Part shown: piece by piece, positions 1 through 15,975 of the stretch
Layout: each line of letters opens with the position of its first letter
How positions within the stretch are numbered: position 1 is the first letter of the stretch
Source of the DNA: a virus
Direction: 5' to 3' (one strand)
Length of the DNA: 23,743 bases
IMG/VR virus record: IMGVR_UViG_3300045921_000044
Coordinates: 1 to 23,743 of that record
The notes under the pieces: generated by a model
The model's input: only the letters and a program-made list of their open reading frames with translations
Databases searched by the model: none
Told to the model about the DNA's origin: nothing
Position numbers and translations under genes: made by a program

Positions 1-1
1 G

Positions 2-130: not shown

Positions 131-135
131 CCATC

Positions 136-567
136 ATGGCTTTCAACTTTCAAGAAGTTCTGTCTCAGCCCGCCGCCGAAATTGAGAAGCCCAAGCCCCT
201 CCCGGTCGGCCACTATATCTGCATCATTGACGGCCCGTTCAAGCCTGGCGAAACCAAAGACTCGAAAGGCTTTGTTGAGTTCAAGCTCAAGCCTCTCGCG
301 CCCGACGCGGACGTGGATATGGAGGAGCTGAGTTCGCAGAAGGGCATCGGCATCCGCACCCTCCGCTACACTCTTTGGCTGGAGGACGAGAGCCGCTGGC
401 GGATTGTCGAGTTCGGCGAGAAGCTCGGCCTCGATGCAAAGAGTATGACGATTGGTCAGATTCTTTCGGAGGCGACCGGCCGACAGATTAAGGCCAAAGT
501 TAAGCACACCGTCTCGGCCGACGGCACCCAGATCTACGCGAACGTCGAAAGCGTTCACGCAATTTGA
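136..567 (+). CDS. Small early-region protein, possibly a ssDNA-binding/OB-fold-like accessory protein
   Basis: A 143-residue acidic protein beginning MAFNFQEVL. After a proline-rich linker at residues 18-24 (EKPKPLPVG) comes a beta-rich stretch (GHYICIIDG, then FVEFKLKPL). A central segment, TLRYTLWLED, is followed by a helical part and a C-terminal beta pair ending in YANVESVHAI. No catalytic motif is visible. The start ATG has a purine-rich AAGAGAG about 8 bases upstream, overlapping the preceding stop. Its place at the head of a methyltransferase, UDG/exonuclease, polymerase and helicase cluster suggests a replication accessory role. Phage genes here often encode ssDNA-binding or DUF669-like proteins, but this is inferred from context and general look rather than a recognised signature. 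Confidence 0.75.
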   Translation: MAFNFQEVLSQPAAEIEKPKPLPVGHYICIIDGPFKPGETKDSKGFVEFKLKPLAPDADVDMEELSSQKGIGIRTLRYTLWLEDESRWRIVEFGEKLGLDAKSMTIGQILSEATGRQIKAKVKHTVSADGTQIYANVESVHAI

Positions 568-574
568 TTCAATT

Positions 575-606
575 GTGAGGAGCGCAAATGCTCCTCACTT
601 CTCTTT
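575..606 (+). terminator. Intrinsic terminator or attenuator between the first two complete genes
   Basis: A perfect 9-bp inverted repeat (GTGAGGAGC at 575-583, GCTCCTCAC at 590-598) encloses a 6-base loop and is followed by TTCTCTTT. It lies entirely in the 48-base gap between the small protein and the methyltransferase fusion, 10 bases before the latter's start. The tract is interrupted by C residues, so termination may be partial, lowering expression of the downstream replication genes. Confidence 0.7.
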
Positions 607-615
607 GAGGCGACA

Positions 616-1833: not shown

Positions 1834-2840
1834 AACTTGCCATCGTAGGCGAAGCGTGGGGCGCAGAAGAGGCTAAGGTTCGTATGCCGTTTGTTGGCGC
1901 TTCTGGCTATCTTCTTGACCAGCTTCTTAAATCAGCCGGCATTGCCAGGCATGAGTGCCTCATCACCAACGTTTTCAATCTCAAACCGGAGCCGACAAGT
2001 GACATCGCTAACCTCTGTGGCCCTAAATGTGACTCTGACCTACCAGCTATATCTACAGGAAAATACCTCCGACGTGAGTTTTACGGAGAACTTGAGCGCC
2101 TCGCAAATGAACTCAATGCTGCGAGACCCAATCTTGTTTTGGCTTTGGGCGGCACAGCTTTGTGGGCTTTCACCGGCGTCAGTGCGATCAGTAAAAATCG
2201 TGGGGCAGTTTTACGATCCACAGGAGCTATCCACGCCGCGCTCAGCGGATACAAAATCCTGCCTACCTTTCATCCAGCAGCAATCTTTCGAGATTACTCT
2301 CTGCTCCCAATTGCCTATGCGGACTTCGCCAAAGCCGCCCGCGAGCGAGAGTTTCCAGAAATCATCCGCCCCCAGCGGCGTATCTATATCGAGCCGTCCA
2401 TTTCCGACCTCGACCAATTCCTCATTCGTTGGCGCGACGCCAAATTCCTCGCAATCGACATCGAAACGCGCGGCGACGCAATCACATGCATCGGCTTCGC
2501 TCCGACCACAACGGAAGCGCTCGTAATTCCGTTCGAGGATCTTCGAAAACAAGGTGGCTCATACTGGCCTACCCCGTTTCAAGAGAAACAAGCTCTGGCG
2601 CGTGTTCGGAACTTCTGTCAGCTTCCAGCTCGCAAAGTTTTTCAAAACGGGCTTTACGACCTACACTTTCTCTGGCGCCGTTATGGTATCACAGTCGCCA
2701 ACCCAAGTGACGACACCATGCTTCTCCATCATGCACTTCAACCCGAGTCGCCAAAAGGCCTAGCGTTCCTTGGGTCAATTTACACCAACGAGGCCTCATG
2801 GAAACTCATGCGCACACAAACTATTAAGAAAGAGGGATGA
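1830..2840 (+). CDS. Uracil-DNA-glycosylase-like domain fused to the front part of a Pol I-type 3'-5' exonuclease
   Basis: A 336-residue protein. Residues 1-170 resemble the family 4/5 UDG fold: GEAWGAEEAK (7-16) then PFVGASGYLL (20-29), with FHPAAI (147-152) in place of the usual H-P-S motif. The N terminus starts directly at the first motif, so the pair of cysteines that begins the Fe-S site of family 4 enzymes is missing. Residues 205-336 are the start of a DnaQ/Pol I proofreading domain: Exo I is D210-x-E212 (AIDIET) and Exo II is N273-xxx-D277 (NGLYD), then DDTMLLHHAL (294-303). Exo III is absent; the protein ends at KKEG, and YNGLD appears only in the polymerase two genes on. UDG-Exo-Pol fusions are known in SPO1-type phages, so this is probably the first half of a split polymerase. 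Glycosylase activity is uncertain because GEAPG reads GEAWG. Confidence 0.85.
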   Translation: MKLAIVGEAWGAEEAKVRMPFVGASGYLLDQLLKSAGIARHECLITNVFNLKPEPTSDIANLCGPKCDSDLPAISTGKYLRREFYGELERLANELNAARPNLVLALGGTALWAFTGVSAISKNRGAVLRSTGAIHAALSGYKILPTFHPAAIFRDYSLLPIAYADFAKAAREREFPEIIRPQRRIYIEPSISDLDQFLIRWRDAKFLAIDIETRGDAITCIGFAPTTTEALVIPFEDLRKQGGSYWPTPFQEKQALARVRNFCQLPARKVFQNGLYDLHFLWRRYGITVANPSDDTMLLHHALQPESPKGLAFLGSIYTNEASWKLMRTQTIKKEG

Positions 2841-2841
2841 A

Positions 2842-3213
2842 ATGTTTAAGGGCGGTTATTACTATCTCGCGTCTCCATACTCTCATCCAGACCCCGCGCT
2901 TCGTGCCGTCCGCTTCCACGAGGCCCAACTCGCCGCCTGGAAACTGATGCAATTCGGAGTGACAGTTTACTCCCCAATCGCAGCGTGGCATCCAGCAGTT
3001 GAAAAATTCGGGGCGCCGACCGATGCGGACTCGTGGTGGCAACACAACAAAGGATTTCTCTTCAAATCCGATGGAGTAATCGTATTGACTCTCGCGGGGT
3101 GGAAAGAGAGCATTGGCGTCGGGCAGGAACTTGAGTATGCAAAAGAGCACGCACTTCGTATTTATTATGCGAGTCGGGAAGGCGAAGAAGTGGTTCTCAG
3201 GAGCCGGCCATGA
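2842..3213 (+). CDS. DUF1937 / nucleoside 2-deoxyribosyltransferase-like protein
   Basis: A 123-residue protein from the ATG at 2842, which lies 1 base after the previous stop and has AGAGGG upstream. The frame is also open further upstream, but that would run inside the exonuclease gene. It shows the signature of the nucleoside deoxyribosyltransferase superfamily: YYYLASPYSH near the N terminus (substrate loop), a central WWQHNKGFLFKSDGVIVL, and SIGVGQELEYAKEH near the C terminus, where the Glu matches the usual nucleophile. Members cleave or transfer deoxyribose between bases, or hydrolyse nucleotides, in the cytoplasm. The gene sits exactly between the two parts of a divided exonuclease domain. 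Its stop overlaps the polymerase start as ATGA, so the three are probably cotranslated. Activity and substrate are not known. Confidence 0.85.
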   Translation: MFKGGYYYLASPYSHPDPALRAVRFHEAQLAAWKLMQFGVTVYSPIAAWHPAVEKFGAPTDADSWWQHNKGFLFKSDGVIVLTLAGWKESIGVGQELEYAKEHALRIYYASREGEEVVLRSRP

Positions 3214-5594
3214 AAGTCATTCGCACAGAAGAGCTTACAGAAAACTCGCTTTCGTCTTCAGTCGAAAAGCTTTGGGTTTACAATGGCCTCGATTGTTGCG
3301 TCACGCTCGAGGTCTTTGAGGCCATCGAACCGCAACTCGACAACACCTCCCGCGCAACGTATGAGTTCTCCAAAGCCTTACAAGGTCCGATTTTGGAGAT
3401 GAACATGCGCGGGGTTCTCATCGACCCGGACGAGGTTCAAAAATCCCTGGCGGCCTACGAGACCGACATCGCACGACTTATTTCTCAATTTAACCGTCTT
3501 GTTAACGAAGGCTTTGGCCTCACCATCAACCCTGCATCGCCCGCGCAACTTAAACATCTTTTTTACGATGTAATGCGGTTGCCAGTCGTGAAAAAACGGA
3601 ACACGCAGGGTGGTTACGGGCCGTCCGTAGACCGCAATGCATTGGAGAAACTCAGCGTCCATTTCCATGCCCAGCCTATTATTGCCCACATTCTCGCGAT
3701 CCGCGATTTGCAGAAAAAGATATCTTTCCTCCGCACCGAGCGTGACGGGGACGGACGGCTCCGGACATCGTTCAATATTGCAGGCACCACAACTGGCCGA
3801 CTTGCATCGGCGCTCTCCGACTTTGGCACTGGCACTAATCTTCAAAACATCGACCGGCGCCTCCGCAGGGTTTTCATCCCCGACCCTGGAATGAAATTCT
3901 GCAACGTCGATCTTGAGCAAGCCGACTCCCGCAACCTTGGTGCGATGGAGCTAACCCTTTTTGGCGACGCCCGCTATCTCGATGCCTGCGAGTCCGGGGA
4001 CTTGCACACTGCAGTTTGTCGAATGGCCTGGACCGAACTTGCTTGGACTGGCGACCCCAAAGCCGACAGGAAGATAGCGGATCAAATCGCGTATCGAGAT
4101 ATGTCCTACCGCGATCTTGCAAAACGCCTCGGGCATGGGTGTCTTACCGTAGACCACGAAGTTCTTACACGAAAAGGCTGGGTTCCGATTACAGACAAAC
4201 CAAATGAGTTGTTGATGTGGAAAGAAGGTGAATCAAAATTTGGCAATGTTTCTCATTGGGAAGACAAATACTACACAGGGGAACTTCAACATTTCTTGGG
4301 AAATTCTATCGACGCGTTGATGACTCACGATCATCGTGTGCCAGCGCGGCGTGACGCATATACTGGAGTTGTTAAAGAGTATCCTGCTTCGGCCGGACCA
4401 CAGCCGTTAATGCCGCTCGGCGATGGATATGTCGGCGGTAATGTTGTAGTCCCTGCTCGGCTTATAGCAGCAATCATGTCTGACGGTTATATAAGCTCCA
4501 ACAGCTCTACAACATTTCATATTAAAAAAGAGCGCAAAGTTCAACGTCTTATTGACTTGTGCAATCTTTATAAAATTAAACTCACAAAAAACGCAAACGA
4601 TAAATACACTGTAAATTTCACTCACAATAAATTTTGCGGAAGTTATATGTTTAACTGGACGCGTGAGTGTCTAGAAGATTTTCTTGACGAGTATAAATTT
4701 TGGGATGGAACCCGCGGAAAATCGAGTGTGACGTTATTCTCAAAAAACAGAGCACAGCTGGAGTGGCTGCAAACATTTGGACGCATCTTAGGTATCGGCG
4801 GCGCAATCTCGAAAAAATATAAAACAGGATTTGGTGGCACTTGTTATCGACTTCAACAAAACAACCGTAAATGGGCTAGAGGATCCTCAGTTAAACACAC
4901 ACGCCACGCTGTAAAAAACGTTAGAGTTCTTTGTCCTACAGTGGAAACAGGCTGGTTTTATGTTCGCCGAAACGGAAAGATTTTTGTTACAGGAAACACA
5001 AATTACGAGGGACAGTCCGCGACCATGGCCATGCACAGCAAGATTCAAGTCGAAATGGTGAAGCAATTCCAGCTCCGCTATTTCACCGCGTTCCCGGCCC
5101 ATCAACGCTATCACCAGTGGGTCCGCGAAGAAATTCGCCGCACTGGCCAACTTACAACTTTGTTCGGGCGGCGAAGATATTTTTTTGGCCGCCGCGATGA
5201 CCCAACTGTTATTCGCGAAGCTGTTGCCTATATTCCGCAGTCAATGACAGCGGATGAAATCGACCATGCTCTAATCCGCATCTGGCGTGACGACATTGCC
5301 ACCCCACTACTTCAAGTCCATGACTCAATCCTCTTCCAATACCCAGCAAAAGACGAAGCCATTATCATCCCCGAGATCCTCAAGCGAATGCGTGTCGAGT
5401 TAGATCTTCCGGGCGGTCGGAAGTTTTCAGTTCCCGCCGAAGCTAAAGTTGGTTGGAACTGGGCTGACGTTGAATACGATGATGCTGGTAATGTCAAGGG
5501 GAACGAATATGGGCTCGTCAAGTGGCGGGGTGCCGACAACCGCAATGCCCCTCGGCCCGCGGCGATTAGCTTCTTGGATCGACTCCTTCGTTGA
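3210..5594 (+). CDS. Family A DNA polymerase (Exo III plus polymerase domain), interrupted by an intein
   Basis: The primary product is 794 residues: 508 of polymerase plus a 286-residue intein (311-596). It begins near the end of the exonuclease domain: Y24-xxx-D28 (YNGLD) is the Exo III motif missing from the UDG/exonuclease protein. Then come TTTGRLAS (193-200) and LQNI (211-214), which are fingers/palm hallmarks, and motif A with catalytic D234 (DLEQADSR). Motif B starts R301-xxx-K305 and, once the intein is removed, reads RDLAKRLGHGTNYEG. Motif C is VHDS (703-706) with the second catalytic Asp D705. By-eye deviations from E. coli Pol I are Asp for the steric-gate Glu in motif A, His at the Phe762 position, and HDS for HDE. 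There is no 5'-nuclease domain. The start overlaps the DUF1937 stop (ATGA) with AGGAG upstream. It is the replicative polymerase of the phage and probably pairs with the UDG/exonuclease protein. Confidence 0.95.
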   Translation: MKVIRTEELTENSLSSSVEKLWVYNGLDCCVTLEVFEAIEPQLDNTSRATYEFSKALQGPILEMNMRGVLIDPDEVQKSLAAYETDIARLISQFNRLVNEGFGLTINPASPAQLKHLFYDVMRLPVVKKRNTQGGYGPSVDRNALEKLSVHFHAQPIIAHILAIRDLQKKISFLRTERDGDGRLRTSFNIAGTTTGRLASALSDFGTGTNLQNIDRRLRRVFIPDPGMKFCNVDLEQADSRNLGAMELTLFGDARYLDACESGDLHTAVCRMAWTELAWTGDPKADRKIADQIAYRDMSYRDLAKRLGHGCLTVDHEVLTRKGWVPITDKPNELLMWKEGESKFGNVSHWEDKYYTGELQHFLGNSIDALMTHDHRVPARRDAYTGVVKEYPASAGPQPLMPLGDGYVGGNVVVPARLIAAIMSDGYISSNSSTTFHIKKERKVQRLIDLCNLYKIKLTKNANDKYTVNFTHNKFCGSYMFNWTRECLEDFLDEYKFWDGTRGKSSVTLFSKNRAQLEWLQTFGRILGIGGAISKKYKTGFGGTCYRLQQNNRKWARGSSVKHTRHAVKNVRVLCPTVETGWFYVRRNGKIFVTGNTNYEGQSATMAMHSKIQVEMVKQFQLRYFTAFPAHQRYHQWVREEIRRTGQLTTLFGRRRYFFGRRDDPTVIREAVAYIPQSMTADEIDHALIRIWRDDIATPLLQVHDSILFQYPAKDEAIIIPEILKRMRVELDLPGGRKFSVPAEAKVGWNWADVEYDDAGNVKGNEYGLVKWRGADNRNAPRPAAISFLDRLLR
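4140..4997 (+). mobile_element. Intein with LAGLIDADG-type homing endonuclease, in motif B of the polymerase
   Basis: A 286-residue in-frame insert begins at Cys1 (CLTVDHEVLT, block A) and ends with FVTGN before a +1 Thr. Block B has T62-xx-H65 (MTHDH), and block F is CPTVETGWFYVRRNGK (265-280). The last two residues are Gly-Asn, so the usual penultimate His is missing. Two LAGLIDADG-like helices are visible: ARLIAAIMSDG (106-116) and LEDFLDEYKFWDG (178-190), the second degenerate. They indicate a compact DOD-type endonuclease that could cut intein-free alleles. By hand count the line 4561-4620 is 25% GC, against 57% for 3901-3960 in the extein, which fits recent acquisition. Splicing must occur for a working polymerase because the insert splits the dNTP-binding helix. 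Confidence 0.95.
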
Positions 5595-6735
5595 TTTCAC
5601 TGAGGGCCTCGGTGTCCCGCGTCTTTTCCAGAAATGGACTGCTGTGGCCACAATTGCGGGCGCACTTGAACGCAAGGTCTGGATTGAAACCGATCGCGGT
5701 AAAATATGGCCCAATATGTATACCATCCTTGTTGGGCCTGCAGGCGTCGGCAAATCTCTTCCACTCAACGAAAGCGAACGGCTTTGGCGATCCCTTGAGG
5801 ATCACCATTGTGCCCCAACGTCACTTAGCAAAGCCGCCATGATTGACGCAATGAGTGACTCTACGCGTAGGGTAATTGTAGGAAAGGAGTATATGGAGTT
5901 CAACTGCCTCCTCGCCAACATCAGCGAATTCGGCGTGTTCCTGCCAGCATATGAGAACGATTTTATGAACGTTCTCATCACATTTTGGGACGGCTCGGTT
6001 TACGAAGAACGGCGTCGGACGAAGGAACTAAAAATCAAGATTGAGAGACCGCTACTCAACATTCTTGCCGGCTCTACCCCGAGTTACATTTCATCTCTAC
6101 TTCCCGAAGGTGCCTGGGATCAAGGCTTTCTTTCCCGCACCATTCTTGTCTATGCCGGGCAGGCACAGAAGGTCAACCCGTTCGGAGGTCGGACACTCGA
6201 CGACGCTGGATACGATGTTCTTTCCCACGACCTCCGCGTGCTTGGACAGCGGGCAGGGAAACTCCACGTATCTTCCGAGGCACAAACTGCAATCACAAAC
6301 TGGTATCTTTACGACACCTCCGCGCCAGACCACCCTAAACTTACCAGCTATGTTTCCAGGCGCCTAGTCCATTTGCTCAAGCTTTGTATAGTCTTTGCGG
6401 TAGATAGACCTAATAACCACGTGGTCGAGCTTCAGGATTTCATTCAGGCGAACGACCTTCTCACCGAAACCGAAACAGCGATGCTTGACCTATTCCGGGC
6501 AATGCGCGGCGGTGGCGATGGGCAGATTCTCGACGAACTCTGGCACTTCGTTTACACCATAACCGCAAAAGAAAAAAAGCCGGTGGCAGAACACCGGCTA
6601 GTTAATTTCTTGTCCGAACGTGTCCCTTCACATAATGTGATGAAGATGCTTGAAATCGCTCTTAAGTCTGAAATGCTTAGCGTGCGGATGAGCGAGACCG
6701 GACTTAATGTATACTCGCCGGGACGAAAAACCTAA
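5509..6735 (+). CDS. P-loop ATPase, putative phage replicative helicase / DUF3987-like protein
   Basis: The chosen start is ATG 5509 (MGSSSGGVPT), with AAGGGGA about 8 bases upstream; it gives 408 residues and overlaps the polymerase end by 86 bases in another frame. A TTG 60 bases upstream is also in frame but has no better ribosome site. A Walker A motif GPAGVGKS lies at 76-83. It is followed by an acidic ISEFGVF segment that fits a Walker B-like strand, then LLNILAGSTP resembling a sensor strand, and an arginine-rich stretch (YEERRRTKELK). The C-terminal 80 residues look like a winged-helix tail. This layout matches the phage DUF3987/primase-helicase-like ATPases found beside family A polymerases. 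No primase motif is seen. The role is probably unwinding or loading at the replication fork. Confidence 0.8.
   Translation: MGSSSGGVPTTAMPLGPRRLASWIDSFVDFTEGLGVPRLFQKWTAVATIAGALERKVWIETDRGKIWPNMYTILVGPAGVGKSLPLNESERLWRSLEDHHCAPTSLSKAAMIDAMSDSTRRVIVGKEYMEFNCLLANISEFGVFLPAYENDFMNVLITFWDGSVYEERRRTKELKIKIERPLLNILAGSTPSYISSLLPEGAWDQGFLSRTILVYAGQAQKVNPFGGRTLDDAGYDVLSHDLRVLGQRAGKLHVSSEAQTAITNWYLYDTSAPDHPKLTSYVSRRLVHLLKLCIVFAVDRPNNHVVELQDFIQANDLLTETETAMLDLFRAMRGGGDGQILDELWHFVYTITAKEKKPVAEHRLVNFLSERVPSHNVMKMLEIALKSEMLSVRMSETGLNVYSPGRKT
6571..6599 (-). terminator. Intrinsic terminator of the minus-strand late operon
   Basis: Read on the minus strand, AGCCGGTG, a 6-base loop and CACCGGCT form a perfect 8-bp stem (6578-6599), directly followed by seven T residues (the A-tract at 6571-6577 on the plus strand). 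It lies about 130 bases past the last minus-strand stop and inside the coding sequence of the convergent helicase gene, where the A-tract encodes Lys-rich codons. This is the classic rho-independent form. Confidence 0.85.
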
Positions 6736-6989
6736 CGTCGGTTTCCTTCGAGAATTTGCCGGATCACTCGAATATCTCCTTTCATCTCCGCAATCGTGTC
6801 GCGATCAATATTTCGTCCGGTCTCAAGCCGATCAATTCTCGTGCGATGGTCATCTACCCGGCTAATCAACGCCCGCACATCCCCTTGCAGCAACGCGAAC
6901 GCAAACACGCAGCCGATAATACTTGCAAACACAGTCCAACCAAACGAGGCGATGTTTACTCTCCAATCAAGACGCGGCGTGCTCATCAT
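6732..6989 (-). CDS. Single-span membrane protein with coiled coil; last gene of the late operon
   Basis: About 85 residues from ATG 6989 (or the adjacent ATG 6986, which overlaps the previous stop). An N-terminal hydrophobic span (FGWTVFASIIGCVFAFALL) is followed by a charged heptad-like helix (LISRVDDHRTRIDRLETG, then IAEMKGDIRVIRQIL). The TM-then-coiled-coil plan resembles DUF2730-type or i-spanin/holin accessory proteins, but no specific family is certain. It follows the holin and spanin candidates with overlapping start/stop signals, so a role in lysis is likely. Its stop codon overlaps the convergent helicase stop in the four bases CTAA, so the two operons have no space between them. 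Confidence 0.75.
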   Translation of the reverse strand: MMSTPRLDWRVNIASFGWTVFASIIGCVFAFALLQGDVRALISRVDDHRTRIDRLETGRNIDRDTIAEMKGDIRVIRQILEGNRR

Positions 6990-7165
6990 TGCCCCCGACA
7001 AAGCGCCTCAAACTTTCGATTGTTCCGGTCAACAGCCTCTTTCGTCCCGCGCGTATCCTGCCGGGAAAGATAGACCGGGGTGTAGGTCTGGCAAAATCGC
7101 GCGGCGGGGGGCGGTGCCGCCTGTTGCGTGCAATGAAACAGGACCAGGAACCCAACGCAAATCAT
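6986..7165 (-). CDS. Small secreted or lipoprotein-like protein, candidate o-spanin (Rz1-like)
   Basis: A 59-residue protein from ATG 7165, preceded by a strong GGAGGGA and overlapping the previous stop as TGATG. It begins with a short hydrophobic segment ending in Cys12 (CVGFLVLFHC), then a Pro/Ala-rich linker (AAPPPAA), then FCQTYTPVYLSRQDT and a C-terminal VDRNNRKFEALC. The proline-rich, exported shape and the position just after a helical membrane-proximal protein fit an outer-membrane spanin subunit. The residue before Cys12 is His and not Gly/Ala, so the lipobox is not canonical and lipidation is uncertain; the paired cysteines could instead form a disulfide in the periplasm. The function is inferred mostly from context. 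Confidence 0.7.
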   Translation of the reverse strand: MICVGFLVLFHCTQQAAPPPAARFCQTYTPVYLSRQDTRGTKEAVDRNNRKFEALCRGQ

Positions 7166-7383
7166 CAATCCCTCCAATATTTAGGATGAAATGCAGCATC
7201 CGTTTCATCCTTCGGCGGTGGCCTCGAATCAATTTCCTTCGCCATCGCCTCTTGCTTTTCAGCCGCCCGGACACCCCGGAGTTCCGCATCGGATGCTCCT
7301 TTGGCTTCAGACTGCTTATGGGCATACCAAGACTCGAAAATCTTGGCAGCCCACGTCGCAAGAAAATTGATGATCCAACTCAT
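7165..7383 (-). CDS. Small helical membrane-anchored protein, candidate i-spanin (Rz-like)
   Basis: A 72-residue protein starting MSWIINFLATWAAKIFESW, a hydrophobic or amphipathic N terminus. A long Ala/Glu/Lys-rich helix follows (KQSEAKGASDAELRGVRAAE, then KQEAMAKEID), with a proline-containing tail (SRPPPKDET) ending in KYWRD. An anchor plus periplasmic helix is the plan of inner-membrane spanins, and the gene lies between the holin and the Rz1-like candidate. Its start overlaps the holin stop (ATGA) and its stop overlaps the next start (TGATG), so translation is coupled. No sequence signature proves the assignment. Confidence 0.7.
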   Translation of the reverse strand: MSWIINFLATWAAKIFESWYAHKQSEAKGASDAELRGVRAAEKQEAMAKEIDSRPPPKDETDAAFHPKYWRD

Positions 7384-7595
7384 CGAACCGGCGGCTGGTC
7401 TTTCACCAACCCGGAGACCCCGTCGCGGGTCAAATTGATTCCAAGCTTAATAATCTTGTCAACGAGAAGCACTGCGGCGGCAAATGTCGCAGCCATTTTA
7501 TCCGACATGCCAAGCATTGTCCAGTCATACGTAAGAAGTGCCCCAATGATGAGGCCAATGACATTCAGAATGTTGTGGATAAGATTGGTGTTCAT
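7380..7595 (-). CDS. Holin (small two-span membrane protein)
   Basis: Start ATG 7595, preceded by AGGTG, gives 71 residues. A longer in-frame opening to a TTG-type start at about 7646 was not used because it would run over the promoter and 5' leader. Two hydrophobic segments are visible: about 9-23 (ILNVIGLIIGALLTY) and about 34-54 (KMAATFAAAVLLVDKIIKLGI). The tail is short, charged and proline-containing (GLVKDQPPVR). Small size, two spans, and a place directly after the endolysin and before spanin-like genes are typical of class II holins, which time cell lysis by opening the inner membrane. It is the first gene after the promoter at 7637-7665. Confidence 0.8.
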   Translation of the reverse strand: MNTNLIHNILNVIGLIIGALLTYDWTMLGMSDKMAATFAAAVLLVDKIIKLGINLTRDGVSGLVKDQPPVR

Positions 7596-7614
7596 CGAGG
7601 CACCTGTATGGTTT

Positions 7615-7629
7615 ATGCCCTTTGGGCAT
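7615..7629. promoter_or_regulatory. Short hairpin/palindrome at the start of the holin leader
   Basis: ATGCCC-TTT-GGGCAT is a perfect 6-bp inverted repeat with a 3-base loop. Measured from the -10 box of the adjacent minus-strand promoter, it begins about where transcription should start. It could protect the 5' end of the holin mRNA, modulate translation, or bind a dimeric repressor. No T-tract follows, so it is not a terminator. Confidence 0.5.
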
Positions 7630-7636
7630 TGTCGAT

Positions 7637-7665
7637 ATCTTAGCACAACTCGGAGTATATGTCAA
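7637..7665 (-). promoter_or_regulatory. Sigma70-type promoter for the holin/spanin genes
   Basis: On the minus strand, TTGACA (perfect -35, plus-strand coordinates 7660-7665) is separated by exactly 17 bases from TAAGAT (-10, 7637-7642), which is preceded by TGC, an extended -10 element. The -35 overlaps the endolysin stop codon. The start of transcription would fall near 7630 and leave a leader of about 35 bases before the holin ATG. It is the only convincing host-type promoter found in the window. Confidence 0.75.
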
Positions 7666-8072
7666 CCCGGGTAACGTGCAACTGGAAGCTGGAAATGCGG
7701 TCCATCCTTGAACGATTTCCAATCCCCGCCCCACTCAATCGGGACTTTTACATCCTTTGCCGCCTGTTTCATGATCTTAGCAAGTCGAGCGTAAAGAGGC
7801 CAGTCCCACTTCACATTTCGTTCGGTGCCAATCCAAGCAGCAAGATCGACTGCATAGCAGAATCCGTCCTTACCGATAAGATGACGTGAGCGCATTGTGC
7901 GGGTAGCGCCCTTTTTGAACAACTCTCTTTGCTGTTCAATAGTGCGTGGCCCCGAAGTGACGATAAATCCGAAATCGGGCTCGGTGATTTGTTCGGCCGC
8001 ACACCGAACAACTTTGACCAAATCCGGGTGAACCCGCTTAAGGTTCGTCTCCGACCGTGCATTGAGTTTCAT
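7662..8072 (-). CDS. Endolysin: M15-family (VanY/L-alanyl-D-glutamate type) peptidase
   Basis: A 136-residue protein that matches the single-domain M15C phage endolysins. The family pattern is clear: the substrate-side motif VTSGPRTIEQQRELF (38-52), zinc ligands H64 (SRHLIG) and D76 (YAVDLAAW), and H126 (GPHFQL) at the end, with E113/W114 in PIEWGGDW near the catalytic Glu position. These enzymes cut the peptide stems of peptidoglycan. No signal peptide is visible, so export probably depends on the holin. The start has AGGAG 8 bases upstream and lies just after the ejection protein stop. The gene ends inside the -35 box of the holin promoter. Confidence 0.93.
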   Translation of the reverse strand: MKLNARSETNLKRVHPDLVKVVRCAAEQITEPDFGFIVTSGPRTIEQQRELFKKGATRTMRSRHLIGKDGFCYAVDLAAWIGTERNVKWDWPLYARLAKIMKQAAKDVKVPIEWGGDWKSFKDGPHFQLPVARYPG

Positions 8073-8074
8073 TT

Positions 8075-11000
8075 CTATCTCCTAGGAAGATCATCATTGA
8101 GCGCCTGCAAAAGCTGACGCATACCAATATAGGTGCCACCAGGCAACACCTGCTGCAACGCCGCCGATTGTTGTTTCGACGGACTATCGCCGAGGCCGAG
8201 TTGGACACTTGCGCCAAAAGCCCTCGGGATATTGGAAATTAGCCCAGCCGTTGGGCCGCCAAGTGCGGTTACAACATCTCGCCCGGCCGCCGTCGATTGC
8301 AACTCGGTCGGGACTGGGCCAAACATCGCCATGATCGGAGTTTTGATCGGATTGATTCTTCCCATTCCTCCCGCTGCCGCTGCCGACTCTAACATGTTCG
8401 CGCCCCAAAACGGGACAGCGAATATACCATTAGCATCCAATGCTTCCGCAATCCAAAACCCTGTGTTCTGCTCAATGTTCCGCCGAAACCTATCAAATCG
8501 TTCCTGTCCACCATGCAAAGCTTGGATATATCGCACTACCATTCCAATCGTAGTCATCGCCACAAGCGCGTGCACAAGTTTAAGTGGGTCGCCTTGCAAC
8601 CCACGAATGGTGACATTCGTCAGCGACGAGATGTTGAATGAATTAAACTGAAGAAGCATCTTCCCCATCGGAGTCTGCGCAAAAAACGGAATCGCGCCCG
8701 GCTGAGCCCGCCTAGTCGAAAACATTCCATCGACTTCTTTTGCGACCGCTGAGCGGTAAGCGATAACGTCGTTTTCGACCCCGCGGAGCGCATCCCCAGT
8801 TAATCCTTCAGTCCATTTTTGCGTGTTAGCAATTCCTACACCACCCTGCCACTCGCCATGCTTACGAAGATGCGCCGCGACACGTTCGGCTATAGCGGGA
8901 TTTAGACCAAGTGAAGTCAAGTATTCTGTATTCGCTTTCATCGTATCCGGGTCGCGCAAAACTCGCATAATATGCGTCTGGGTCATTGTCGAGCCGATAG
9001 TCTCGACAAAATCTTGCCAGATTCGCGCGCCATTCCAGCGGCTTGCAACTCGCGTAACTTTGTCAACGATCTTCTCGATTGGCGATAGTTTCGAGAGCGG
9101 ATCGCCGATGTCAGCCATAGTAAGAAGGATGTGATCCGCGGCGCGATTGGTAACAAGGTTCATTAGCTTGGCTTCACTGACACTCGCCTTCACTCCCGCA
9201 AGGTTGGTTATCAGCGGCATCAGTCCGTCCCGCAGAAACGGCAGCAACCCACGCACCATAGCCGGGCGGTAGAGATCGGTAAGCTGAGAAATCACCTGAC
9301 CGCCCATCTGCCGGATATAGTTAAACCCGGTCACAACACGCGAGATACGTCCAAACGACCCTGAGTTCTCATTCACAAACGCGGTGGCTCGGACAGTATC
9401 ACGAAGAAGTTTTAGGTCTGAAATTGCGTTTGCCTCATCATCTGCGATGAGTTTCAAGAGCTTACGTTTTGTGAGATCGTCATCGGACTTAAATGTGACT
9501 TTCAGTCGCTCCAGGATCGTTGGCTCTTTTGCCAGCGCCGCATACGCAGCTTGCGCGTCAGGGGCTTGTTCAACTGCAGCTCGAAGCGCGTCATAGCTTT
9601 CAGCCAATTTTCCTTTATAAACACCTGTTTCTCCAAACACCTCACGAAGCGCCGGGCCGCCGAGATTAAGTCGTGCGAGCGCTATGTCGCCAGCAACACG
9701 TCTAGCATGAAGATGTGCAACCTCGGTAATGTCTTTGTTGAAGAACTTAATCGGGGCGTTAGGCGGGTCCATAATAAGATCAGGGATAGGATTAGTCCTG
9801 CCTTTGAATGGGCCTTTGTCGATCACCTCAAAAAAATTCGACTTCGGACTTCCGTCAGCGCCATACATTCTTCCAGAGTATTTGGCCGCGAGTTCATCCG
9901 CTACGTCGGTAGCGAACTGAGTAAACTTCGGGGCGCCCGCCCCGCGAATATCTACGTTCTCGCCAAGAACTTTCACTTCCCAGCGCTCCATGAATCGCCG
10001 CTCAATTTCTTCTTGTCGAGCAGCTAGCGCCTTATCTTGTTCTTCAATCCACTTCGGGTCGCGGCGAGCAATCCTGGCACGCAACCGGGCAGCTTTCTCG
10101 CCCATAGACAGTTGCCGGCCGGCCACTGCGCGCACAAGCATCTCATTCGCTTCTCGCAGAGCTTCTGCCTGCTGCATCCGATCCACAGACTCAATTGCTT
10201 CAATTCGAGCTTGAATGCGCCGCATCTCTTCAATACGGGCTTGGGTGCGGCGCTCTTCCTTTGCGAGGCGCTCCGCCAGCGCCTTATCCATCTCTGCTTC
10301 TTCGCGGGCCTCTTTCAATGATTTCCGCGTGTCAATGCTTTCAGTAAAAGCCGCGCGTTCTTTATCCGCTGCAATCTGCGCTTGCGCCATGCGCTTTTCG
10401 CCGGCTTCTTGCAGCTTGGCCATCTGCTCGTGGAGTCGAGCAGCCGACTTAACTTCACGCTCAATCACGTTTTCGTATGCGAGAGTAAGCCGGTCAATTT
10501 CAATCTGCGCTTTCTCCGGGTCAAGGGACTGGAGTTTCCGCTCCGTAGCGCGGCCACGCTCAAGCAGGCGTGTAAGCGCCGCCACCGACCGCTCTTCGAG
10601 GTCCGCGAGTTGATCCGCCAGGTCTTGCGCTTTTTGCGCCTGCATACCTTCGCTTTGTGTCAACCGCCGCTCGCGCGCAGAAATAGCGCGGATTTCTTCA
10701 TCGAATGCTCGAAGTCCAGGCACTTCACGGAGTTGATCGCGCTCGGCACGAAGGGCTTTGACTTTCTCTCTATTTCCTTCCCGCGCCGCTCGACGAATGG
10801 CTGCATTGTAGTCTTTTAGCACCTCACGAAGCAACGCCAGTTCCGGCGCACGAGTTTCAAGCTCAGCCCGTTGAGCTTGAAGACCTTCAATCAGTCGCGC
10901 GGCATCCTCTGCTGACATACGAAGATCGGCGCGCCGCTGTTCCAAATGGGCAAGACGTGCTCTTGCGGTGTTGAGAGAAGTTTGATAGTTTTCCATTAGT

Positions 11001-13111
11001 GCAGCTTCAAGCGCCGGAACAACTCGACGCCGCCACTCATCAGGATATTGCTTGAACGCCTCTGCGATTGGTTGCCGCGGGAGATACGACCCAGGATTCA
11101 TTTGCACATTGCCGGGCGACAATGCTCCCGAGTCCAGCATATCTTTCAGGAACGGATCGAAGAACTCACTGCGCCATGTCTGCGCCGCCCGCGTGATAAA
11201 TGCGTTATCGTCAATCGCTGTGGTGTTGTTAAGGAGCGCATAACCAACACGTTGGTTAAAATCCTCATACGACATTTTTTGCCCGGAGCGAACCATGTCG
11301 CTGTAAATTTGATCGTGTTTAACAATCGTGTTTGGAAACCGCGCTTCGAGTTGCGACGCCACACGTGAGGCCGCACCGCCTGGAGCCGCAGTTAAGCCCT
11401 TCGCGTGCCCCCGCATAAGGAGCGGATTTTCGCCGATTGCCTGCGCGAGTTGCCGAACGTAGGGCGACAGGCTCTGTGCGAGGCGGATGTTAGGAGACAG
11501 CCAGCCGAATTTCCCGGCAAGGCTTTCAGCGATTGTGCCTTTAATTCGCAAGGCTTCGAGTGGAAGTCCTTCGGTTGCGGCCGCGCCTACAGGCTGCGGA
11601 TTCGCCATCGCAGAGGGAATTTCCACCACTTCAATTTTCTGCGACTCAGGAAATTGAACTCCACTCCAATTAAAATCCCGCTCAACTTGATGTAGCAATC
11701 GTGCTCTTGTCAAGTCAAAAAGGACAATTTGATCTTGAACTTCATGCATAAAAAAGTGAGGCAAATTAAAGTATGCCGGGCCTGCGCGCATTTGCACAAC
11801 ATCGTAGATGGTCAATTTTTTGTTTGCTTCAACATACTCTTCAAAAGTTGGAGGAGTGATATTATAGTGCTTAGACGTTTCGAGAGAGCGCTTGTATCCT
11901 GCAGTCCAAAATTGATCCAACAACGCTTTATCTTGCGGCAAAAGCTCCTCGGGACTCATTTTTTTAGTTGCGGCATCCTTCCACTTTACGCCGTAATCAG
12001 CAAATACTTTCGGCTCATAACGCGAAATAGCTTCAAACCCCTGAATAATTATCGCATCATGTCCATTATTTTTTGCCCAGTCCTTCAAGGTAAGATAAGC
12101 CTCCTCGCCTGTATCGAACCTTGAAGGGAACACTGCGTCAAAAATGTCGTATACGTTGTTTGGAGTAATAACCAACGCATTCCGCGGGGAAAACTCCACA
12201 GCATACCAGTCAGGAATACTAAATCGCTCTACTCGACCCGCCATCCACATTCCAGATCCATCTAGATAAAGAGTGCTTTCATCTCCAAAAACAGAACCGT
12301 AACGTGCGCCTTGAAAATTTAATTGAAACCCCTGCGACAAATCCGTGTAAAAAGAGTTACCGTGACGAACTTCCCAAGTTCCGCTTACTCCAGTAAACTT
12401 GACTACTGGAGTCACATTAGGCGGAGCTACCTTTCCACCATAAGCCGCGCGGGCGGCCGCCTCTGTAATCTGCCGATCCGCACGGTTAAGCCATGCAGCT
12501 ACGCCACCACCGAGAAGCGCGCCAAGGACAACTCCACTGCCGATGTTCATCAGCGACTCATCCCAGCCACGGGTAAGTTGCGTATCCTGCAATGCCCCCT
12601 CTTGCACTGCGATAGCCGCGCCCGTAGCCGCTCCAGTGATTGCGGCACTCCGTGCGATAGCATAGCCACCACCAGTGGTCGCTCTGACTGCGCCGCCAAC
12701 CGGGAGCAACACTGTAGGGTCCGTCAAATTAGCAGCAATACCAGTGGTAAGCCCAAGCCACCAAGGCATAGTCGCAATAGTGCGACGGTCATCTTCTTCT
12801 TGCGCGATTTGCAAATCGACAGCCATCGCCCGACGTGCGTTGAAAGCGCCAGCTTTGACATACGTTTCCCAATCTCGCTCACGGCCTGCGTCACGAAGAT
12901 GTTGAAGCAGGTCGAAATTAGGATCGACTTCAGTTGGTGTTCCCCGCACCCGATCCGCAATCGCAGATGCAATCAAATTTGATTGGCGAAACTGCGCGGT
13001 AAGCTGCTGCCCGAATGTCGGGCCTGGGGCCGGCGGTCCTTGCACTGGCCGGGCTTCATCCCCCAGTGGGGTGCCCATCGGAAGCGAAGCGAGGTCGTCG
13101 CGGAAGCCCAT
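8075..13111 (-). CDS. Very large internal virion / DNA ejection protein
   Basis: 1678 residues from ATG 13111, which overlaps the previous stop as TGATG and has AGGTG upstream; a GTG one codon earlier is possible. The N-terminal 235 residues include a Gly/Ala-rich hydrophobic stretch (about 115-210) that could insert in membrane. Residues about 237-499 form a segment unlike the rest (see separate entry). Residues about 710-1045 are a continuous Arg/Glu/Ala/Gln-rich coiled coil. The last 400 residues include FNYIRQMGGQVISQLTD and PMGKMLLQFNSFNISS, typical of the C-terminal part of large podoviral internal proteins. It lies between the transglycosylase internal protein and the endolysin, the place of T7 gp16-like proteins. 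It is probably packed in the capsid and ejected to form the channel for DNA entry. Confidence 0.85.
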   Translation of the reverse strand: MGFRDDLASLPMGTPLGDEARPVQGPPAPGPTFGQQLTAQFRQSNLIASAIADRVRGTPTEVDPNFDLLQHLRDAGRERDWETYVKAGAFNARRAMAVDLQIAQEEDDRRTIATMPWWLGLTTGIAANLTDPTVLLPVGGAVRATTGGGYAIARSAAITGAATGAAIAVQEGALQDTQLTRGWDESLMNIGSGVVLGALLGGGVAAWLNRADRQITEAAARAAYGGKVAPPNVTPVVKFTGVSGTWEVRHGNSFYTDLSQGFQLNFQGARYGSVFGDESTLYLDGSGMWMAGRVERFSIPDWYAVEFSPRNALVITPNNVYDIFDAVFPSRFDTGEEAYLTLKDWAKNNGHDAIIIQGFEAISRYEPKVFADYGVKWKDAATKKMSPEELLPQDKALLDQFWTAGYKRSLETSKHYNITPPTFEEYVEANKKLTIYDVVQMRAGPAYFNLPHFFMHEVQDQIVLFDLTRARLLHQVERDFNWSGVQFPESQKIEVVEIPSAMANPQPVGAAATEGLPLEALRIKGTIAESLAGKFGWLSPNIRLAQSLSPYVRQLAQAIGENPLLMRGHAKGLTAAPGGAASRVASQLEARFPNTIVKHDQIYSDMVRSGQKMSYEDFNQRVGYALLNNTTAIDDNAFITRAAQTWRSEFFDPFLKDMLDSGALSPGNVQMNPGSYLPRQPIAEAFKQYPDEWRRRVVPALEAALMENYQTSLNTARARLAHLEQRRADLRMSAEDAARLIEGLQAQRAELETRAPELALLREVLKDYNAAIRRAAREGNREKVKALRAERDQLREVPGLRAFDEEIRAISARERRLTQSEGMQAQKAQDLADQLADLEERSVAALTRLLERGRATERKLQSLDPEKAQIEIDRLTLAYENVIEREVKSAARLHEQMAKLQEAGEKRMAQAQIAADKERAAFTESIDTRKSLKEAREEAEMDKALAERLAKEERRTQARIEEMRRIQARIEAIESVDRMQQAEALREANEMLVRAVAGRQLSMGEKAARLRARIARRDPKWIEEQDKALAARQEEIERRFMERWEVKVLGENVDIRGAGAPKFTQFATDVADELAAKYSGRMYGADGSPKSNFFEVIDKGPFKGRTNPIPDLIMDPPNAPIKFFNKDITEVAHLHARRVAGDIALARLNLGGPALREVFGETGVYKGKLAESYDALRAAVEQAPDAQAAYAALAKEPTILERLKVTFKSDDDLTKRKLLKLIADDEANAISDLKLLRDTVRATAFVNENSGSFGRISRVVTGFNYIRQMGGQVISQLTDLYRPAMVRGLLPFLRDGLMPLITNLAGVKASVSEAKLMNLVTNRAADHILLTMADIGDPLSKLSPIEKIVDKVTRVASRWNGARIWQDFVETIGSTMTQTHIMRVLRDPDTMKANTEYLTSLGLNPAIAERVAAHLRKHGEWQGGVGIANTQKWTEGLTGDALRGVENDVIAYRSAVAKEVDGMFSTRRAQPGAIPFFAQTPMGKMLLQFNSFNISSLTNVTIRGLQGDPLKLVHALVAMTTIGMVVRYIQALHGGQERFDRFRRNIEQNTGFWIAEALDANGIFAVPFWGANMLESAAAAGGMGRINPIKTPIMAMFGPVPTELQSTAAGRDVVTALGGPTAGLISNIPRAFGASVQLGLGDSPSKQQSAALQQVLPGGTYIGMRQLLQALNDDLPRR
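11615..12403 (-). other. AT-rich inserted domain within the ejection protein
   Basis: Residues about 237-499 of the large protein. A hand count of 12001-12060 gives 38% GC, against 67% at 10561-10620 in the coiled-coil part. The segment is rich in aromatic residues and Asn/Lys, unlike the Ala/Arg/Glu-rich flanks, and contains AVEFSPRNALVITPNNVYDI followed by FDTGEEAYLTLKDWAKNNGH and DAIIIQGF. This resembles the ADP-ribosyltransferase-like domains of phage 'polyvalent' proteins, but the R-S-E catalytic triad could not be assigned with confidence. It may be an effector delivered into the host with the DNA. Confidence 0.5.
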
Positions 13112-15975
13112 CACTCACCTTTAATCATATTTGGGTTGCCCTCAAAAGGGAAATTTGCGATGGCCGGGTCAGTTGGCGAGTCTCCCGTTGGCCTGGGATC
13201 GGAACGAAGGGCACCAAGCGCGCGCCCGACAGCGCCGGATATTTCTCGCGCGGCGCGAATTGGCCCCGCGTTTTCAACTGCGCGATTAACCGCGCGCCGT
13301 CGCTCATTGATTTCGGCAGCAATTTGCTCTGCTGGTCGCCCAGTCCTCTGTGCCTGCTCGACCACAACAGAGTCTGTCGGCAAAAGCATTGGCATCAAGC
13401 CCTGCCCTTCACGAGCGCGCGCAATTTCCGGCGCAATAACTTCCCGACGAAGCCGCTCGTTTTCTTTTGCGACATCTGCTTGCCACGGGCGCGCAATCAC
13501 CGAGCCATCCTCCCCGCCGATATTCAAGCGGTCATACTGACGAATGCCGTTTTGATCGAGGAAGGAAAACGCAATACCGTATGCAGGAGGTTCCCGTCGT
13601 GCCCGCCACATACTGGCAGTAACCCCCGACCGATCTAACGGAATGAGTGTAATGTCCTCAGGTTTTACCTCCCGTCCGGTCATTTCTTTTACAGCTTCGG
13701 CCGCCTGCCGATAGATATATCCAAACTGATCGTTCGGGTCATTCGAGGGCGGGTATCGCATTTCAGGCGGATACCGCATAACCCGACCATTGCTGACTCC
13801 GTAGAGTTCCTTCATTCGGTTTAGTGCATAGGACTCTGCTTCATTCCGATCACCGGTTTGGCGATACCGCTGAACCATTTCTTCCGCAAAGTCATTCAGA
13901 ATTGCCGCGCGAGCATCCTGATTCATTGGCATTTGCACACCGCCAAACGCAACAGGCGCGCGGCCGGCCCACAAGCCAGCAATAGCGGTCAAAATTCGCG
14001 ACGAGTAATCAGTCTTTTTAATTTCATCGCGGAGGCGCTGCGCCTCCGCATCTCGTGCTTTTTGTTGCGCCGCAAACTCCGGCGAGTTGCGGCGGGCGAT
14101 TTCGGCCGCGGCCTGCTGCGCGCTCATCCCAATGTCGGTGAGATAACGCCAAGTTGTGCCGAACTCATAAATCTCGTTTGCGCCGTTGACCCCGAGTAAT
14201 GGGTTCTGGCGCCTGGCATCGCCTACAATGGCCCCGGCAATCGCTCCAGCTATAGCAATCTCTTGCACATTCGTCGAGTTAGCCGCGCCGCGCAAAGCAG
14301 CCGCACCTTCGTCCGGAAGCAATCCAGACTGCTGAAATACGCGAAGCCCGGCCGCGAGACGATTCCCCCCAGTTTGCTGCAACGCGGCCTCAAATCCTGC
14401 CGACGCAATTTTTTTATCTTCCGGGTCCGCCCCGTTAAGCACACCACCCTGTCCAACACGCTGGGCATAAAGCTGTGCATATTGCGTTTGCTGGTCCCGG
14501 CGCGTAATTGAAGTCATTAGCTGCTGCACGGTGCTTGCATCAGTCAACCATCCAGTGTCACGGGCGGCGCGGACTTCAGCCATCCCCGCGCGGCCGTCGA
14601 TAATATCGAGTTGAAGCTGGTTTAGCCGAGCGTTATATTCCTCGGTTTGGCGCTGTTGGATTTGAACAGTTTGTTGCGCGGCCATACGCTCGGCCTGCTC
14701 ACGAAGGGCAACCCGCTGCTGGTAACTCAAACCGCCGGCTGCCGCAGCCACATTCGGGTCGGGCGTAACCGGGGCACCAGTCATTCCTCGGGTTTCAATA
14801 TTAAACACCTCCGCAAGTGTGCGCGGCTCGGTTCGCCGGCCACTCCACGCGCCCTCACCCCCTACAGTCGGACGATAAAAAGTGCGAGGGTTCGTTGCTG
14901 CTGCTTCTGGAAACAAAGCAGCAGCGCTTTGCGTAGGGTCGCGGGCAAGCTCTTTAAGAAACTTAACCCCGTTAGTTTGTCCCAGGAAATGCAGTATTCG
15001 CATATTCCTGTCAACTACAGGAAGATTAGCCGCATTAAGTGCACGAACACTCCATTCTTCGTAAATCCTTATAGCGGCTTCTTGTTGAGCTGGGTCGAAT
15101 CTGGGATCATTTCCTGTCCGGGATTCTCCAGGCCCAATTGGGCGGATGCCGGCTGCACGCCCTGCGGGAGAGTTTGCAATCTCATTCCAAGTGCTCGTGA
15201 TAAACTGATACCGTCCTGTTGCGGATGAACTTGGGTTCGTCGCACGGTCATTACCTCCGCTTTCAAGTTGCCGGTTGATTTGTCTATACTGCGTAGTGCC
15301 CCCGAGCGCAGCTGAGGCCCCATTAGGGTTATTAGTCACATAGCGGTTCATAGCCGCCTGGGAAGATTGCTGCCGCCAAGTATTTCGTAGCGCCTCTTTT
15401 TGGTCTTCTGGAAGCTGCGTGGCGTCGATAAGGCGAAGACCTTCAGCCTGATACCGCTGAAGCGCGTCGGGCTGGCTATCAATTCCTTGCATGAGCGTGT
15501 CAAAAGCACGCGCCAGTCCAGTGCTTTGCGTGGCGTCTCGAATCTGAAGTTCGCCCATAAACGCTTGACGGGAAATCTGCCCACGAAGCGCCTGATATCG
15601 CGGTGCCCATTGACGACGCTGTTCCGGCGTCATAGCGTTAAGACGCTGTGCAACTGCATTGTCGTAGGATGCGGTTATATCACGAGTAAAGTTGATCGCT
15701 TGCGAACCCTGTGCTTCGCGCATAGCGACTTGCAGCCGTCGCTCTTCGCTTTGACTAAATTCAAGAAACGAGCGTTCGTGATCGAAATTCTCGCGCCGCT
15801 GAATTTCCGCGCGATAGGCCACCGTGGCGCGAACCGCTGCGTCAGCAAAACTTTCAACCGCACGTCCAACGCCAGCACCGAACGCGTCAGCAGTTACCCC
15901 ACCAATTTGCTGAGGCGATTGCACATTGACCGGGACTTGCGATCTAGGAATCGGGGAATAAGGAACTTCGACCAT
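13111..15975 (-). CDS. Internal virion protein with lytic transglycosylase domain
   Basis: 954 residues starting MVEVPYSPIPRSQVPVNVQS. The first 210 residues are helical and Gln/Arg/Ala-rich. Residues about 228-345 form a lysozyme/SLT-like domain: QLESGGNDRATNPSSSATGR with the probable catalytic Glu at 238, then YQFITSTWNEIA, then DPRFDPAQQEAAI. The long remainder is Gln/Ala-rich helix with no recognised motif, ending in NFPFEGNPNMIKGE. This matches podoviral internal virion proteins that open peptidoglycan during genome entry; in T7 the transglycosylase is in gp16, here it is in a separate protein beside a giant partner. No Shine-Dalgarno is obvious at the ATG. The stop overlaps the next start. 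Confidence 0.88.
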   Translation of the reverse strand: MVEVPYSPIPRSQVPVNVQSPQQIGGVTADAFGAGVGRAVESFADAAVRATVAYRAEIQRRENFDHERSFLEFSQSEERRLQVAMREAQGSQAINFTRDITASYDNAVAQRLNAMTPEQRRQWAPRYQALRGQISRQAFMGELQIRDATQSTGLARAFDTLMQGIDSQPDALQRYQAEGLRLIDATQLPEDQKEALRNTWRQQSSQAAMNRYVTNNPNGASAALGGTTQYRQINRQLESGGNDRATNPSSSATGRYQFITSTWNEIANSPAGRAAGIRPIGPGESRTGNDPRFDPAQQEAAIRIYEEWSVRALNAANLPVVDRNMRILHFLGQTNGVKFLKELARDPTQSAAALFPEAAATNPRTFYRPTVGGEGAWSGRRTEPRTLAEVFNIETRGMTGAPVTPDPNVAAAAGGLSYQQRVALREQAERMAAQQTVQIQQRQTEEYNARLNQLQLDIIDGRAGMAEVRAARDTGWLTDASTVQQLMTSITRRDQQTQYAQLYAQRVGQGGVLNGADPEDKKIASAGFEAALQQTGGNRLAAGLRVFQQSGLLPDEGAAALRGAANSTNVQEIAIAGAIAGAIVGDARRQNPLLGVNGANEIYEFGTTWRYLTDIGMSAQQAAAEIARRNSPEFAAQQKARDAEAQRLRDEIKKTDYSSRILTAIAGLWAGRAPVAFGGVQMPMNQDARAAILNDFAEEMVQRYRQTGDRNEAESYALNRMKELYGVSNGRVMRYPPEMRYPPSNDPNDQFGYIYRQAAEAVKEMTGREVKPEDITLIPLDRSGVTASMWRARREPPAYGIAFSFLDQNGIRQYDRLNIGGEDGSVIARPWQADVAKENERLRREVIAPEIARAREGQGLMPMLLPTDSVVVEQAQRTGRPAEQIAAEINERRRAVNRAVENAGPIRAAREISGAVGRALGALRSDPRPTGDSPTDPAIANFPFEGNPNMIKGE

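Follow-up and report, generated by a model that had tools for sequence, protein, structure and literature searches.

A predicted sigma70-type promoter before a podoviral holin gene adjoins a member of a dispersed family of palindromic sites and may be under operator control

The 66-base gap that separates the stop codon of an endolysin gene (7662) from the start codon of a holin gene (7595) in a podovirus raises the question of whether the holin is transcribed from a promoter of its own and, if so, what governs that promoter. The DNA analysed, hereafter the window, is a linear IMG/VR fragment of 23.7 kb from a podovirus whose virion genes are T7-like; the minus strand carries its late genes, which extend from the major head protein to the lysis block, and its replication genes run convergently on the plus strand. 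The endolysin, an M15-type peptidase (7662-8072, minus strand; PHROG 465, E 2.7e-52; PF13539), lies upstream of the promoter considered here. It is followed on the same strand by a 71-aa holin candidate (7380-7595) with two hydrophobic segments, which gave no match in PHROG and Pfam searches and has relatives in loci L082, L083, L084, L085 and L086 (46-54% identity) and in L087 (30%). Next come a 72-aa protein (7165-7383), a spanin-like candidate by position, and a 63-aa candidate outer spanin (6986-7177), which we take to resemble Rz1 and which found no match in a Pfam search. The final gene of the block (6732-7001) encodes an 89-aa protein with one hydrophobic segment; neither this protein nor the 72-aa protein matched a PHROG or Pfam family. 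The block is closed by an intrinsic-terminator-like hairpin with a T run (6578-6599, minus strand) inside the convergent primase gene. Its counterpart in the related locus L010 (1862-1885) has a weaker T run, and in both genomes the hairpin coincides with the opposite-strand codons of a conserved primase motif, KKPVxEHRL.

Several observations describe the window more generally. Searches of the phages collection found no near DNA match to it, one scan of genome contigs found no host link, and Rfam gave no match at gathering scores for the window or L105. The head protein of L100 and the polymerase segment and primase of L104 are identical to those of the window; these contigs, which come from two metagenome ids, end short of the holin promoter. 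Residues ~368-446 of the tail tubular B protein (16949-19792) match parts of unrelated baseplate and fibre families. The gene at 1830-2840 fuses a uracil-DNA glycosylase domain to a 3'-5' exonuclease domain (the latter a weak match, below the Pfam cut-off) and adjoins a separate DNA polymerase gene (3210-5594).

The initial annotation had described, on the minus strand, TTGACA, a 17-base spacer and TGC-TAAGAT, together with a perfect 6-bp hairpin near the predicted start of transcription, and we found all of these elements in place. The -35 box TTGACA (7660-7665) contains the endolysin stop codon TGA (7662-7664), and the 17-nt spacer ends in TGC (7645-7643), which extends the -10 box TAAGAT (7637-7642). 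The arrangement is thus that of a sigma70-type promoter, with near-consensus hexamers at 16-18 nt and an added TG, and would place +1 at about 7630. The inner palindrome, ATGCCC-AAA-GGGCAT (7615-7629), has a perfect 6-bp stem around a 3-nt centre, would occupy +2 to +16, and is followed by AAACCATACAGGTG and then by the holin ATG. Also on the minus strand are a flanking motif, ACCATAC (7606-7612, about +19), which has the form RCCATAY, and a Shine-Dalgarno-like AGGTG (7601-7605), 5 nt before the ATG. Two familiar devices were ruled out. The palindrome at 7629-7615 is not an intrinsic terminator, there being no T run after the stem, which is followed by AAACCATAC; nor is the holin of the lambda dual-start type with an sdi, its product beginning MNTNL and the in-frame stretch upstream holding no second ATG.

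Weak promoter matches are no commoner in the window than expected: positions 1-15000 hold 10 sites matching at least 9 of 12 letters, against 10.3 expected from shuffled sequence. The holin promoter is the joint best of these (10/12, with a site at 7523) and the only one that carries the TG. Scored with a sigma70 weight matrix, it reaches 14.1, and 40 simulations gave an expectation of 0.05 such sites per strand of 23.7 kb. A still higher score, 15.3, the best in the window, falls at 23536-23508 (minus strand), within a coding frame that precedes the major head protein. L100, which has an identical head protein, keeps that site, whereas it does not appear among the sites scoring at least 11 in L101 (72%); we judged it to be probably a chance match rather than a second promoter. 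When 160 nt around the lysin stop codon were compared across 65 distinct regions long enough to score, from 82 lysin-bearing loci, only the window (14.1) and L010 (12.3) exceeded 8.9; given a TGA at that place, a score of at least 12.3 has P 0.0004. Two more distant lysin cassettes that we read, L184 and L238, have no comparable gap after the lysin. Beyond the primase, 19 of 119 non-L010 loci score at least 11.5 somewhere in up to 5 kb (122 loci were scanned, 3 of them the L010 contig). The idea of a promoter common to holin homologues elsewhere was rejected: inspection by eye of the 200 nt upstream in L082-L087 revealed no gap with boxes.

L010, a 5.5-kb contig, is the only close syntenic relative found, and no other contig came up when the Rz1-like protein was used in an alignment-based search. 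It shares the gene order of the window: a large virion protein (68%), an endolysin (59%), a holin-like gene whose product does not match the window holin, the 72-aa protein (56% identical), the Rz1-like protein (76-81% identity) and the convergent primase. TTGACT lies over its lysin stop codon, where the window has TTGACA, and is followed after 16 nt by TATCAT, so that the conservation check proposed by the initial annotation found both boxes kept in the one close syntenic relative available (1/1). The L010 palindrome (6+3+6) ends one base before AACCATAC, as does that of the window; AACCATAC is identical in the two and was found before the motif was generalised. Four of the six stem pairs have been replaced, on both sides, with the stem, the loop and the distance to AACCATAC unchanged. 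Because identity at four-fold sites is only 33% against 26% expected (119/358; 0.33 vs 0.26), unselected bases are close to saturated between the two sequences. The gap from the -10 box to the palindrome is 7 nt in the window and 39 nt in L010, a difference that would require an operator to work in another way in each. A promoter and site together before a holin were found in this one close relative alone.

Six-base-pair stems are plentiful in the window, and a palindrome of this kind is by itself common; what sets this one apart is its recurrence in relatives. A search of all loci for a palindrome before AACCATAC brought out the same layout in distant relatives, and the motif RCCATAY was defined after these first matches had been inspected. 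In its strict form (stem of at least 6, 3-nt centre, gap of 0-2, RCCATAY), the site gave 21 matches across the loci, a figure that counts the window and L010 along with two palindromes in both of their readings; 16 are distinct, against ~1.35 expected (964 motif places x 0.0014). The window site has the defining arrangement, a 3-nt-centre palindrome at a fixed distance from RCCATAY. Because RCCATAY had been chosen after the first matches, we ran a covariance model, R1, built from 10 sites, on other sequence. Its alignment holds 10 of the 12 sites of alignment A7, from which L141 and L195 were omitted, their palindromes being shifted by one base; R1 matches the omitted L141 site weakly (19-21 bits), and its match in L195 (19.9 bits) is to a neighbouring tandem unit, not to the omitted one. 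The palindrome at 7615-7629 scores 34.0 bits and is one of the 10 training sequences. CCATA is invariant across the 10 aligned sites, which had been selected for RCCATAY, and covariation in alignment A8 was not used as evidence, since the sites were picked for perfect stems.

Run over 92 of ~250 loci, mostly of the clade, R1 returned 38 rows with E no higher than 5, as against ~5 expected by chance. Setting aside the 10 training sites and one copy leaves 27, and since 8 of these are reverse readings, there are 19 further places, two of them on one contig. The same model gave 3 rows, none better than E 2.8, on 85 loci of other phages (628,646 bases), a control set that includes one very distant relative, L046. 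Pieces of seven whole relatives yielded 22 rows at 16 places. G013 has five of these and G022 three, G001, G006, G015 and G023 have one to three each, and the pieces of G007 gave none. In the 23.7-kb window one family copy was found.

The sites are mostly intergenic and lie near replication, tail-fibre-like and lysis genes. Nine of 12 places with E up to 0.11 (L272, L271, L269 and L264 6976 being left out) fall outside ORFs of at least 100 aa, although such sequence makes up 18.5% and ORFs 81.5% (P 3e-5). Locations also repeat from genome to genome: sites stand directly behind a gene encoding a ParB-methyltransferase (L197, L202, L219, L230, L233, L240, L241, L250, L252, G006, G015 and G023), and where checked (L241, L252, G006, G015 and G023) a uracil-glycosylase/exonuclease gene comes next. 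Others precede the same gene, directly in L135 and L173 and at a distance of a few hundred bases in L115, L137, L140, L141, L144, L145 and L158. At the late end, sites in L192, L208, L218 and L220 precede a gene whose product, presumably, resembles a tail-fibre N-terminus. Many sites also carry RTATGGY on the left, and others a second RCCATAY in direct orientation. In L192 (7613-7655, minus strand) the outer arms have changed together, TATTGCC / GGCAATA standing for TATGGY / RCCATA, as if the whole inverted repeat had been kept, and L195 (1755-1822) has two palindrome-RCCATAY units in tandem.

Strong sigma70 promoters are over-represented at the family sites. Within 105 nt around each site, a forward score of at least 12 was reached at 5 of 35 sites (window, L010, L230, L233 and L274) and a reverse score at one; the other 30 have no such forward score, and the set leaves out L225, L148, L137, L183/L243 and L264 6976. 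Once the window and L010 are set aside, the count is 3/33, compared with 6/2100 random segments (P 1.2e-4). Because the sites are mostly intergenic, the comparison was extended to 139 other gaps in those loci, where none of 278 segments reached 12 (Fisher P 0.001). The -10 box lies inside the palindrome in L230, L233 and L274, whereas the palindrome begins just after the predicted start in the window and lies near +33 in L010. A T7-type RNA polymerase (PF00940) was found in none of 32 records, among them the fragmentary window, L010 and L101, with T7 itself as a positive control; the host polymerase is therefore the natural reader of these promoters, with the proviso that PF00940 may not cover N4 enzymes. 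The initial annotation had proposed that host RNA polymerase would express the holin and spanin-like genes separately from the endolysin, and this is partly sustained, by the placement of the promoter, by the conservation of its boxes in L010 and by the lack of a T7-type polymerase in those records.

How, then, might the palindrome act? The letters of the inner palindrome are alike at the five sites of G013 and the three of G022, two related genomes, and differ in other genomes. The orientation of the better-scoring reading is independent of the direction of the flanking genes, as in G013, where the site at 7525 reads minus between plus-strand genes and that at 33683 reads plus between minus-strand genes. 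Since the letters are alike within a genome and different between genomes, a DNA operator fits better than an RNA hairpin, and the kept letters and free orientation would suit a protein-binding site on DNA. The operator was the option placed last by the initial annotation and has become the better supported one, the palindrome belonging to a dispersed site family. The palindrome might instead act in RNA, as a 5'-terminal hairpin of a holin mRNA made from the same sigma70 promoter, protecting the message from decay or setting its translation. The hairpin is predicted at -10.2 kcal/mol (z -1.8) and, at +2 to +16, lies 9 nt upstream of the Shine-Dalgarno sequence; an ORF, taken as the longest within 60 nt, starts 11-32 nt after the first RCCATAY base in 12 of 13 sites; and mRNAs can be stabilised by 5' stem-loops (PMC7509114). 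However, a position at the extreme 5' end is predicted in the window and not in L010, where the hairpin would lie ~33 nt inside the transcript; the better-scoring reading of some sites, such as the two in G013, opposes the flanking genes; and letters kept within one genome are not needed for structure alone. We consider an RNA role unlikely, although worth keeping in view.

If the palindrome is an operator, the most likely regulator at the holin site is the product of 616-1833 (plus strand), a gene that adjoins the replication genes; it joins a ParB/Noc N-terminus with a helix-turn-helix (HTH; residues ~115-144) to a DNA adenine methyltransferase (PF02195, PF01555). Profile searches matched it to Noc (7ng0, 6e-18) and to an adenine methyltransferase (5hfj, 1.5e-6), and the PDB fold matches of its model were likewise N6-adenine methyltransferases and Noc. 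The model places helices at 122-129 and 133-144, with a mean pLDDT above 90 for those blocks (overall 85.8, pTM 0.55). All seven whole relatives carry a relative of this gene, G007 too, although the search found no site there. Of 37 loci or pieces queried, in which some genomes are represented twice, 31 contain one; the remaining six (L010, L218, L259, L265, L270 and L272) end before reaching the gene. Its named relatives number 23 records, and identity is 24-27% in the seven that span most of the query. Nothing in the window corresponds in its letters to the sites directly before the gene in L135 and L173. The window does have, at 575-598 (plus strand), a 9-bp palindrome, GTGAGGAGC-GCAAAT-GCTCCTCAC, 17 nt before the gene; it is without RCCATAY, its letters are unlike those of 7629-7615, and it is perhaps the gene's own control site.

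A ParB-family protein in the clade would also suit parS-like loading or marking sites that serve DNA handling, packaging or methylation landmarks and have no role in transcription, the holin promoter being incidental. Sites are few per genome, most have no strong promoter nearby, and in L135 (4600-4672) the site in front of the ParB-methyltransferase gene adjoins GTTTCACGTGAAAC, which we take to be the chromosomal parS core. Against this, strong sigma70 matches occur at 3/33 of the family sites and at 0/278 segments in other gaps, and in L230, L233 and L274 the -10 box lies within the palindrome itself. We regard a purely parS-like function as rather improbable.

Were the ParB-methyltransferase to read the palindrome, its HTH might be expected to change with the letters of the site, and the two do vary together in a way that is suggestive. 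Genomes with a TAAA...TTTA palindrome have nearly one HTH sequence in common, although they are close kin, and several with TGTCGG-like palindromes share another; L141 and L144, on the other hand, have palindromes unlike that of L173 despite similar HTHs. A partial Mantel test of HTH against palindrome gave r 0.25 (P 0.0004, n 26) and, with near-copies dropped from the 26 genomes to leave 23, r 0.21 (P 0.008, n 23). The HTH windows rank first of 64 along the ParB-methyltransferase protein and take the first two places among 184 when raw correlation is used (0.44). By partial r, windows of two control proteins, the neighbouring polA1 (0.29) and the primase (0.24), compare with the HTH (0.25), and because they do as well, shared ancestry may account for the tie. 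Were the sites operators of some other phage or host regulator, control proteins that track the palindrome no less closely than the HTH, and a genome (G007) with the fusion gene in which no site was found, would be unsurprising; the first places of the HTH windows by raw correlation, and the location of two sites directly before the fusion gene and of many directly behind it, would not. This makes another regulator improbable, to our minds distinctly so.

The reading that we prefer, to which we assign a probability of about 0.46, is that the gap carries a promoter for host RNA polymerase with sigma70, serving the holin and spanin-like genes and placed under operator control, with the ParB-methyltransferase as the most likely regulator. 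Our confidence in an operator-controlled promoter is reduced because G007 has the fusion gene without a site having been found. On the preferred reading, the promoter would start a short transcript of the holin, 72-aa, Rz1-like and 89-aa genes that ends at 6599-6578 and excludes the endolysin. Early in infection the regulator, made with the replication genes, would occupy the site over the holin promoter, and, once bound, would exclude or block RNA polymerase up to a late stage. Later, replication would multiply the promoter, and the site would be freed by dilution, by methylation or by some other signal; host polymerase could then make the short holin-spanin transcript, while the endolysin would be supplied by the long late transcript. 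The comparison shows the sequence elements and their conservation, the site family and its tie to promoters, and the domains of the candidate regulator; promoter use, binding, repression and the identity of the regulator, and with them an effect on the time of lysis, are what we infer.

A bolder version of this reading makes the ParB clamp-adenine methyltransferase the master switch of the clade: the HTH would read the genome-specific palindrome, the conserved methyltransferase domain would read and mark the constant RCCATAY, and the methylation state, reset by replication, would gate the lysis transcript. If this were so, the lysis clock would be run by DNA methylation, a prospect that we think very doubtful. 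A hairpin promoter for an N4-virion-type phage RNA polymerase can be put lower still, as highly improbable: N4 promoters have a similar geometry, with a 3-nt loop and a fixed distance, and the distance from loop centre to CCATA is indeed fixed in the 10 aligned sites, but the inner stem letters vary freely between genomes, and a search of 32 records for PF00940, a family that perhaps does not extend to N4 enzymes, found no polymerase. That a good-looking promoter and a common short palindrome merely coincide in a 66-nt gap, as the lack of an excess of weak matches and the probable chance origin of the stronger 23536 site would allow, is scarcely credible beside conservation in L010 at near-saturated divergence and membership of a dispersed site family.

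Should the operator-controlled promoter be real, the holin of this phage, unlike its endolysin, would stand under a repressible host promoter of its own. Repressor sites that are dispersed and largely intergenic are known in phages as the stoperators of mycobacteriophage L5, which resemble the present family in their distribution; they differ in being asymmetric and in belonging to the repressor of a temperate phage. The papers listed from the open-licence PMC literature included none on sites like these, or on a ParB-methyltransferase acting at a holin promoter. Host CtrA sites in promoters of alphaproteobacterial phages are another case of dispersed regulator sites (PMC9437464). The sdi of the lambda S gene is, like the palindrome, a structure adjoining a holin start (PMC3359269), but the window holin has no dual start. 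Among T7-like phages, predicted host promoters have been described in JG068 (PMC3765740), and in LUZ100 the lysozyme and holin are transcribed, the passages concerned naming no promoter of the holin's own (PMC10134795). The holin of the Liberibacter prophage SC1 does have its own promoter, which is active in a reporter in L. crescens and can be repressed by a DNA-binding protein (PMC5463029). The likeness lies in a separate, repressible holin promoter, repression at the window site being putative; in SC1, by contrast, a different bacterium supplies the repressor, the first late operon begins with the holin, and there is no related palindrome in the account given (PMC5463029). Plasmid RK2 offers the same combination of a ParB-family protein, a palindromic operator and a sigma70 promoter: KorB, a ParB-family clamp, represses sigma70 promoters from the operator OB, and KorA, bound at OA close to the core promoter, assists it (PMC11790492). 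The palindromes are different, however, OB may sit kilobases from the promoter (PMC11790492), and the phage protein, whose repression is putative, is fused to a methyltransferase. Fusions of a ParB-CTPase fold to an N6_N4 methyltransferase are frequent in phages and have no settled role, according to a 2025 survey whose passages at hand name no DNA sites for them (PMC12704722); the sites proposed here would provide the ParB-methyltransferase of one lineage with concrete candidates, one of them at a gene with an easily measured output, lysis.
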